Below are positions 53,946 to 57,367 of a stretch of 64,000 bases of DNA, one piece after another. Position 1 is the first letter of the stretch; the number at the start of each line of letters is the position of its first letter. The notes below the pieces were generated by a model. It did no database searches, was not told where the DNA came from, and saw only the letters and a program-made list of their open reading frames with translations. Source of the stretch: Dechloromonas denitrificans (lineage in GTDB: Bacteria; Pseudomonadota; Gammaproteobacteria; Burkholderiales; Rhodocyclaceae); the NCBI RefSeq assembly GCF_001551835.1, contig NZ_LODL01000007.1, positions 234,628 through 298,627 of the forward strand. The letters run 5' to 3'. A program made the translations under genes and the position numbers.

Positions 53946-55742
53946 TCAGCTGTCGAGCAGCACACTGCTCTCGCAGCCAACCCGCAAACCGCCCCAGTGC
54001 CGGCCATCGACGATGATCGGCAGATTGATCTCGGACAGCACTTCGCCGGTATCACGGGCGTAGGTCTGGAGCAGCAGCGGCCGCGTATTTTTGGCTGCCC
54101 GCTGCCCGGTCGGGTCGTCCCAGATCCGTCGCGTCCGGTTGCCCACCAGGTCGGCCTGGTAATCGCCGGTCAAGGGCTTGGAATATTTCAGGTTGTGGAT
54201 CGCCCCGTAACCCTGGGTATCGACCATCAGCGCGTACACACCGCCGCGCAACTGGCCCAGCGCCTCTTCGGCCAGCGGCTGGATTTCGCGCTCGAACGCA
54301 GCGGCATAACTGACTTCGAACTTCTGCGGATTGGTATTCGGGATCGGCCGATAACGCTGATCCCAGATATCAATGCCGCGCTTCGACATCTCCTGCATCG
54401 TGTCCTGCAGGCGCAGCAGCATCTTGCGGGCCTGATCGACATTGAAGTCGAACGAGCCGCGCCCGATTTTGAACCGCGAAACCAGTTCCTGAACGCTCTC
54501 GGTGGCCCGACTCAGCGTCTGGGTCGAGGTTTCGGACGACTGCATGCTGCCGGAAACCTCGTTCGACAAGGTATAGACCTGTGACACCGCCTCATGGACC
54601 TGGCCATTGGTCGCCGTCAACTCTTCCATGGCCGAGGCAATCTGGTTCAACTGATCGCCGGTATGCTCGAAGTTGCTGACCATGCGCTTGAACTCGGCGG
54701 ATGAGCGCTCGACCACCTGCCTGGTTTGCTGAATATCAGTATTGATAACCTCGTTCTCATCCTGCGTTTCACGCACCAGCGAGATCATGCCGCCGATGTT
54801 GTCATTGATTTCCTGCGTCGCGACATTGACCCGCTCCGCCAGCTTGCGTACCTCGTCGGCCACCACGGCGAAACCCCGCCCCATTTCGCCGGCCCGGGCC
54901 GCCTCGATGGCGGCGTTGAGGGCGAGCAGATTGGTCTGATCGGCAATTTCCTTGATCAGGCCAGCGATCTTGCGGATGCTGTCGGAGCGCTGCGCCAAAT
55001 GGCCGACCGTATCGTTGAAGGCAGAAAGCTTGTCGCTGACCGTCTGGACCTTGCTAACGATGTCAAACATCTCGCCCAGCGAGGCGCGTGCGGTTTCAAG
55101 ATTGGATTCCGTCGACTGGGAAATCAGCTCAGCGGAGGCAGAAACCTCGTGGATGGCCTGAATGGCTTCCGTGCTAGCACCGAACACCGCGTTGGCAATT
55201 TCGCCCTGTTGCGTTGCCCGCTGCGCGGTCGAGGCCACCGTTTTCTTCACGAGCACGGCCTCGCGAGCGATATTGACGCTCATCTTGCGCACTTCGTTGA
55301 TGATTTCCCGCATCTTGTCGGCGAAGCGATTGTAGGACTCGGCCAGTCCGCGCAATTCGTCGTGAGTAATGGTCGGCAAATTGCGCGAGAAATCCCCCTC
55401 GCCGCGTGCGATCTCGTCGAAAATCGTTGAGATCAGCTTGATCGGCCGCAGGATCAAATGGCGGATATAGAGAATCTGCAGGACATTCCAGAGCAGGGCA
55501 AAAACGGTCATCCCGATCATCAGCGTCAGACCGCTATCCATGCCCTCGGATATCCGCTGCAACACCTCTGTATTGACGCCGCCACGGGCCAGCTCGTCAG
55601 CGACCAGCCCTTTCTGGTGCAAGTAGATCGCCAGATAAGCCAGATCGACAAAGAACAGGATCAAAAAGCTCATCAGCTTTTTGGTCAGCGAATTCCAGAA
55701 TGTGCGTTCATTCCATTCGTATAATCGCCGCAAAGTTTCCAT
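53946..55742 (-). CDS. Methyl-accepting chemotaxis protein with C-terminal sensor domain
   Basis: 598 residues from the ATG at 55742 (CAGGTT upstream); an in-frame ATG at 55820 gives an unlikely leader. Transmembrane helix at about 24-42, short periplasmic loop (about 43-70), second helix about 71-93, HAMP about 94-146. The signalling core has [16 protein letters not shown] and [13 protein letters not shown]. After the coiled coil, residues about 455-598 form a separate domain with [11 protein letters not shown] and a Cys near the end, most likely the sensor. The periplasmic loop is too short for a ligand domain. The ligand is unknown. Confidence 0.92.
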
Positions 55743-55947
55743 TTTTGTAACCTGAAATTCAAAATTCGATGAATTCAATACTCCTTCCTCGACGCCGTCA
55801 AGCCAGCAAAAGGAGTACATAACGACGAACTCAGGTGGCCATGCAGCAAAAAAGGACCGGAAAGCATTTCACAGACTCAAAAAACATTTCATATCGTGAA
55901 ACATTGAACATAAGCCAATGTTTAATAACAAAAATAAATTGTCTTAT

Positions 55948-55961
55948 GTCTTATATAAGAC
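55948..55961. promoter_or_regulatory. Perfect 14-bp palindromic operator upstream of aceA
   Basis: GTCTTATATAAGAC is fully self-complementary. A half-site copy GTCTTAT directly precedes it (55941-55947). It ends two bases before the aceA -35 box, so a bound regulator would affect that promoter. The regulator is not identified. Confidence 0.75.
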
Positions 55962-55963
55962 TA

Positions 55964-55992
55964 TTGCTGCCCTGCGCAAAAATAACTATACT
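55964..55992 (+). promoter_or_regulatory. Sigma-70 promoter of aceA
   Basis: -35 TTGCTG (55964-55969) and -10 TATACT (55987-55992), 17-base spacer. It leaves a leader of about 70 bases before the ATG at 56069. Confidence 0.75.
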
Positions 55993-56068
55993 TTGATCCA
56001 TCGGCACTGCATCTCAAGCAAGCGCTTGCAGACCGTACCCCAAAACCAAATCTCTTGAGGAATTCACC

Positions 56069-57367
56069 ATGAGCACTCGCGAACAGCAAATCGCCGCCCT
56101 CGAAAAAGACTGGGCTGAAAACCCCCGCTGGAAAGGCATCAAGCGCGGTTATTCCGCTGCTGACGTCGTCCGCCTGCGTGGTTCTTTCCAGGTCGAGCAC
56201 ACCCTGGCCCGTCGCGGCGCCGAAAAGCTGTGGGATCTGGTCAACAACACCCCCTACGTCAACTGCCTGGGCGCCCTGACCGGCGGTCAAGCCGTTCAGC
56301 AAGCCAAGGCCGGCATCAAGGCGATCTACCTGTCCGGCTGGCAAGTTGCTGCCGACAACAACGAATACGCTGCCATGTACCCGGACCAGTCGCTGTACCC
56401 GGTTGACTCCGTGCCGAAGGTTGTCGAGCGCATCAACAATGCCTTCAACCGCGCCGACGAAATCCAGTGGTCGAAGAACATCAACGCCGGCGATGCTGGT
56501 CACGTTGAATACCATCTGCCGATCGTGGCCGATGCCGAAGCCGGTTTCGGCGGCGTGCTGAACGCCTACGAACTGATGAAGGCCATGATCCGCGCTGGCG
56601 CTGCCGGCGTGCATTGGGAAGACCAACTGGCTTCCGTCAAGAAGTGCGGCCACATGGGTGGCAAGGTGCTGGTGCCGACCACCGAAGCCGTGCAGAAGCT
56701 GATCGCTGCCCGTATGGCGGCCGACGTCTATGGTGTGCCGACCCTGGTCATCGCCCGTACCGATGCTGAAGCGGCCGACCTGATCACCTCCGACTACGAC
56801 GACAATGACAAGCCGTTCCTGACCGGCGAGCGTACAGCCGAAGGCTTCTACAAGACCAAGAAGGGTCTGGAGCAGGCCATCTCCCGCGCCGTCGCTTACG
56901 CCGAGTACGCCGACCTAGTGTGGTGCGAAACCGGTACGCCGGATCTGGAATTTGCCCGCAAGTTCGCCGAAGCCGTACATGCCAAGCACCCGGGCAAGAT
57001 GCTGGCCTACAACTGCTCGCCGTCCTTCAACTGGAAGAAGAACCTGGACGATGCCACCATCGCCAAGTTCCAGCGCGAACTGGGCGCCATGGGCTACAAG
57101 TACCAGTTCATCACCCTGGCTGGCATTCACTCCATGTGGTACAACATGTTCGATCTGGCCCAGGACTACGCCAAGCGCGGCATGTCGGCCTACGTCGAGA
57201 AGGTTCAGGAACCGGAATTCGCTGCCCGCGACCGTGGCTACACCTTCGTCTCGCACCAGCAGGAAGTCGGCACCGGTTACTTCGACGACGTCACCACCGT
57301 GATCCAGGGTGGCAAGTCCAGCGTTACCGCGCTGACCGGCTCGACCGAAGAAGAACAGTTCCACTAA
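56069..57367 (+). CDS. aceA: Isocitrate lyase
   Basis: 432 residues, the E. coli AceA type. K-K-C-G-H at 191-195 holds the catalytic Cys193; [15 protein letters not shown] and W-E-D-Q-L-A-S-V are further hallmarks. It splits isocitrate to glyoxylate and succinate in the glyoxylate shunt. The partner malate synthase gene starts at 63448. A double hairpin follows the stop. Confidence 0.98.

Follow-up and report, generated by a model that had tools for sequence, protein, structure and literature searches.

Isocitrate lyase is the gate that separates the respiration of acetate from its assimilation. In E. coli the glyoxylate bypass is under the repressor IclR, and control of that bypass is what the E. 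coli system shares with the locus described here. A different kind of regulator, the GntR/HutC-subfamily protein SdhR, has been given the motif TCTTATGTCTTATATAAGACATAAGA by Suvorova et al. 2015 (PMC4494728), a paper that, in the part of its text available to us, cites Suvorova et al. 2012 (J. Bacteriol.) as the source of the motif. As printed there, the motif contains letter for letter the 20-nt sequence TCTTATGTCTTATATAAGAC, which lies upstream of aceA in the window, the 64,000-nucleotide stretch of Dechloromonas denitrificans DNA analysed in this study. The match to the published motif is continuous and identical over 20 of 26 positions, and at aceA promoter sequence replaces the right outer half. 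From the sequence evidence we conclude that the aceA palindrome with its extra half-site is almost certainly an operator of SdhR. The identification relies on the identity of the motif, a copy of the site beside sdhR, conservation, and the fact that sdhR is the only UTRA gene detected. The fuller reading, in which the palindrome is an SdhR operator and would also serve to coordinate aceA with genes of the TCA cycle, we place at a probability of about 0.85.

The features of the aceA upstream region are as follows, in window coordinates.

55887 to 55901, no strand assigned: second conserved inverted repeat TTTCATATCGTGAAA, an IclR-type-like candidate, 61 bp 5' of the start of the palindrome
55941 to 55947, plus strand: outer (third) half-site GTCTTAT, which repeats the left arm of the palindrome directly with a spacing of 7 bp, from the sequence and a repeat search
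55948 to 55961, no strand assigned: predicted SdhR operator core, the perfect 14-nt palindrome GTCTTATATAAGAC, from the published SdhR motif and conservation
55964 to 55969, plus strand: putative -35 element TTGCTG, conserved in position in relatives, with 3/6 consensus matches
55987 to 55992, plus strand: putative -10 element TATACT, with CTATACTT invariant in 9 aligned sequences and the element recurring in 39/48 sites
56069 to 57367, plus strand: aceA, isocitrate lyase, 432 aa (NCBIfam NF011645, 803 bits against a cut-off of 562)

Two bases, TA, separate the palindrome from TTGCTG, a 17-nt spacer leads from there to TATACT, and the aceA ATG is at 56069. The initial annotation, which had described the half-site, the palindrome and the TTGCTG-17-TATACT promoter, was correct to the base in the sequence and the repeat search. 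It had also called the -35 box a good one; the position of the element is indeed conserved, but TTGCTG agrees with TTGACA at only 3/6 positions, and the aceA promoter is absent from the list returned by a generic consensus scan. Support for the predicted promoter therefore comes from conservation (39/48 sites) rather than from a consensus match. By eye, the genes on either side of aceA are on the opposite strand, and aceA is not part of an aceBAK operon. A methyl-accepting chemotaxis protein gene (53946-55820, minus strand) is divergent from it and, by eye, probably starts at an internal METLRR rather than at the first ATG listed. Within the window the palindrome occurs perfectly once, and allowing up to 3 mismatches adds a single match, within aceA. 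A separate palindrome in the leader, GCAAGCGCTTGC (56018-56029), was rejected as an operator because it is unconserved, being found in 2/227 loci, both from the window's own genome.

Conservation was scored in 110 aceA loci, comprising 30 from genomes of the family, the window's own included (133 of 150 genomes matched), and the best 80 of a wider search; upstream sequence was too short in two, which left 108. In this sample, which favours close aceA relatives and contains phylogenetic redundancy, the palindrome was present upstream with at most 2 mismatches in 93/108 loci and in 0/105 downstream controls. Mismatch counts were 0 in 46 loci, 1 in 46, 2 in 1 and at least 5 in 15, and no downstream control fell below 4. 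Across nine chosen close upstream regions, the window among them, the 22-nt block TGTCTTATGTCTTATATAAGAC, TTGCTGC and CTATACTT are invariant, as is the outer half-site GTCTTAT, and most of the leader varies. Accumulibacter, known for acetate-driven phosphorus removal, has the palindrome before aceA in 7/7 loci so titled. The 15 loci that lack the site are the family member L029, a Ferrovum-titled bin (L081), a proteobacterium (L141) and 12 others titled Leeia, Vogesella, Aquitalea, Gulbenkiania, Chitinimonas, Chromobacterium or Neisseriales. Loss of the palindrome from aceA in close relatives, on which the initial annotation was prepared to give up its proposal, is clearly not what the alignments hold, and a transcription-factor site abutting the promoter is supported by sequence and conservation alike.

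In the 4.24-Mb genome perfect 14-mers occur in two places, aceA and the gap between sdhR and mdh, and a single one-mismatch copy precedes a DUF485-actP gene pair. A search for the 14-mer upstream of gltA, sdh, mdh and other central-carbon genes, as first suggested, bore fruit in part: mdh and sdh-gltA share the one site in the sdhR/mdh gap, and a separate copy with up to 2 mismatches is found only before DUF485-actP. At that threshold the real pattern gave 3 forward matches and a reversed control 4, so that the perfect copies are the only ones distinguished by their number; weight was therefore placed on perfect copies, position and conservation. Perfect copies were present in 78/150 family genomes. 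From 77 other site-bearing genomes of the family, 29 perfect-site loci were taken, one each from 29 genomes; aceA is the neighbour in 11 and sdhR in 16, while 2 (L035 and L053) have neither alongside. In these two loci the perfect 14-mer (1501-1514 in both) adjoins ORFs that by eye resemble acyl-CoA dehydrogenase and acyl-CoA ligase, and in both it is followed by CTGACG.

The initial annotation stated that the regulator is not identified in the window, which agrees with our finding that the likely regulator, SdhR, is encoded on another contig (G000:C19). The protein (P0001) matches the GntR winged helix (PF00392, 67.2 bits) and the UTRA domain (PF07702, 111.2 bits), both over cut-off, and the N-terminal winged helix with a C-terminal UTRA domain places it in the HutC subfamily of the GntR family. 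As a HutC proper, that is a histidine utilisation repressor (TIGR02018), it scored 104.1 bits, below the curated cut-off of 220. It is the sole UTRA (HutC-type) match detected in the genome. In the accessible text on SdhR the published protein is HutC-type; P0001 is likewise, and its gene lies alongside sdh, in keeping with the name. The gene is located between the divergent mdh and sdhC, upstream of sdhCDAB-sdhE-gltA, and is followed on the same strand by ORFs for sdhC, which was confirmed by a profile match, and for sdhD, sdhA, sdhB, sdhE and gltA, which were identified by eye on the basis of their sequence and gene order. The perfect site in the sdhR/mdh gap is 18 nt upstream of the first possible sdhR start, a GTG, and the mdh promoter of this genome reads TTGACA-17-TAACAT. 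The closest solved UTRA domain is that of 3cnv, a putative GntR regulator for which the table names no ligand.

Beside sdhR the site is kept as well. In 54 sdhR loci (30 + 24), with distances run to the alignment start and not to the start codon, the site lay within 300 nt upstream with at most 2 mismatches in 46/54 and downstream in 0/52; both sdhC and mdh adjoin the sdhR homologue in 47/54. Homologues were also sought in the genomes of the 14 aceA loci from the wider search that lack the site and of 10 chosen loci that have it, and all 24/24 carry one at E 1e-20 or better, with identities of 31-52% in the former and 53-85% in the latter. The genome of the site-less family locus L029 (G027) also keeps an sdhR homologue. 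In the 14 genomes without an aceA site, the region upstream of sdhR holds a perfect site in 10 and a one-mismatch site in 1; the other 3 offer nothing closer than 3 mismatches. Two of these three, the Chromobacterium homologues L192 and L193, have neither sdhC nor mdh alongside and may be paralogues. That 11/14 genomes with a site-less aceA keep the site at sdhR indicates a tendency of the site to go with the regulator, with aceA having joined or left the regulon. In all, 15/108 aceA loci lack the site though their genomes keep an sdhR homologue, so that aceA need not be among the targets. Site and regulator stay linked even where the regulator is only 31% identical (Leeia, L196). The winged helix is better kept than the UTRA domain (e.g. 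identity 0.48 vs 0.26 for L196), and in the 54 homologues S64, G66, T67 and R69 are invariant, with Q65 in 52 and K70 in 53.

The one-mismatch SdhR-like site (L003 1501-1514; G000:C35:606696-606709) lies ahead of a DUF485 gene and a gene for an acetate symporter of the actP type, with an enoyl-CoA hydratase gene flanking its other side. It is kept with at most 2 mismatches in 5/30 actP-partner loci, own genome included, compared with 0/30 controls, and it is present in 3/4 genomes of the same genus. In this actP site, as in its 4 relatives, a single base is shared with a -10-like TANAAT.

Two alternatives concern what the palindrome is. That it is a chance palindrome, or DNA neutral to the promoter, could draw on the genome-wide count at 2 mismatches, which does not surpass the reversed control; with that control perfect in 0/150 family genomes against 78/150 for the real sequence, and with the palindrome conserved upstream of aceA, we regard the idea as having practically no chance of being right. 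Alternatively, aceA might be served by another regulator that recognises this motif, leaving SdhR only its own operon, since family members can share motifs and the perfect sites of L035 and L053 stand beside fatty-acid-like ORFs rather than aceA or sdhR. Against this, the genome has only one UTRA match and 27/29 perfect-site loci adjoin aceA or sdhR, and we consider a second reader of the motif very improbable.

The half-sites around the palindrome were compared in 93 distinct aceA sites (apparently the 93 of the conservation count with L028 added and one duplicate dropped), with an outer half, TCTTAT, scored at up to 1 mismatch. The left outer half is found in 46/93. In all, 44 sites have the left half only, 43 the right only, 2 both and 4 neither, while offset control windows matched in 8/744. 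The window's own aceA site belongs with the left type. Among sites without the right outer half, 39/48 have TTGnnn 2-3 nt past the palindrome and then, after 17 nt, TATA(A/C)T. In the right-half class (n=45), a second palindrome with up to 3 mismatches is found in 32, following after 15-16 nt in 31/45, and those 31 end 0-1 nt before a -10-like TANNNT, e.g. TAGAAT or TAAAGT. On the mdh side of the sdhR/mdh gap, TTGAC is 10-13 nt from the site in 26/46 cases, at other distances in 6 and absent from the 40 nt scanned in 14. A strict rule of left halves in Rhodocyclales and right halves in Comamonadaceae is contradicted by the mix within the family, and the lineage split is a tendency only; 11 perfect aceA sites from other family genomes comprise 6 with the left half only, 3 with both, 1 with the right only and 1 with neither. 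All four half-sites are present, in arrays of the form TATCTTATGTCTTATATAAGACATAAGAT, upstream of sdhR in L162 and L172 and upstream of aceA in L060. Such arrays suggest that a pair of SdhR dimers may occupy neighbouring positions.

In the mechanism that we propose, SdhR would occupy all three half-sites, which span roughly -58 to -38 of aceA, and its footprint would reach the -35 element and hinder RNA polymerase. Under a high acetate or TCA load some metabolite would bind the UTRA domain and SdhR would leave, so that aceA would rise together with mdh, sdh-gltA and acetate uptake through DUF485-actP. The initial annotation left a repressor and a class II activator both open, and the evidence leans toward the former without settling the sign: we infer that SdhR probably acts as a repressor at aceA, a preference held with some reserve. 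The lean derives from the second palindromes that adjoin the -10 in 31/45 right-class aceA promoters, from the overlap of the actP site with a -10-like element, and from the solved relatives DasR and YvoA, which were deposited as repressors. Several observations count against this explanation, since the actP site is kept in only 5/30 loci, two perfect sites are beside neither gene, and the aceA and mdh sites lie upstream of the -35 (by 2-3 nt at aceA and by 10-13 nt in 26/46 at mdh), a geometry also suiting an activator. SdhR might then bind but activate aceA in a class II-like manner, holding RNA polymerase at a weak -35. The centre of the site, at about -44.5 from the predicted start and next to a -35 with 3/6 consensus matches, would accord with this, as would the nearly fixed spacing of 2-3 nt in 39/48 sites of the left or neither type and an mdh -35 that lies roughly one helical turn further away. 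The same second palindromes and the same actP overlap speak against activation, however, and the mdh promoter of this genome, by its sequence, should need little of it; we judge activation unlikely.

Upstream of the SdhR operator predicted here, the second inverted repeat has the form TTTCAY-ATC-GTGAAA. A match to TTTCACNNNGTGAAA with at most 2 mismatches occurs at the same 61-bp offset in 15 aceA loci, own included. Within 400 nt upstream, such matches were found in 50/108 aceA regions vs 1/105 controls, numbers to be read with the caution that offsets vary outside the closest group and that AT-rich upstream DNA may inflate loose matches. In the available portion of PMC8222616 the IclR group 1 consensus is GKTYCRYW3-4RYGRAMC and tandem sites are spaced at 18-22 nt. 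The second repeat resembles this consensus, and a preceding half-site, CATTTCA, is 20 bp away, within that spacing. On the one strand searched, the 4 IclR loci of the genome gave no match closer than 4 mismatches to GTTTCRYAWYRYGAAAC, and none of these IclR genes is proposed as the regulator acting at the repeat. Judged by its sequence, the repeat is a possible site for a second regulator of aceA.

We tentatively extend these observations to a more speculative and rather doubtful model, in which SdhR would, in many betaproteobacteria, switch the glyoxylate shunt, acetate uptake and the TCA cycle jointly by reading an array of TCTTAT half-sites. Individual aceA promoters would keep different subsets of it: loci near the window mostly the upstream outer half by the -35, Comamonadaceae-type loci mostly the outer half on the downstream side, along with a second palindrome on the -10, and a few family members both. 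The polarity of the array, together with an IclR-type input 61 bp upstream, might tune the response or set its sign.

Taken together, the results name a likely regulator of isocitrate lyase among relatives of Dechloromonas and Azonexus, as judged by aceA similarity, and outline a compact candidate SdhR regulon of aceA, mdh, sdhR-sdh-gltA and actP. Literature searches gave no experimental study of SdhR among the matches listed. IclR of E. coli belongs to another protein family and has another motif, given as TGGAAATNATTTCCA in a table of PMC8222616; nor does aceA here share the aceBAK arrangement. Compared with SdhR as published, whose motif in the text accessible to us has four half-sites, the aceA site of the window has three. 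The motif and the regulator were already known as predictions, and, set against that part of the published account, the link to aceA, the layout of the half-sites and the site at actP are the additions of the present study.
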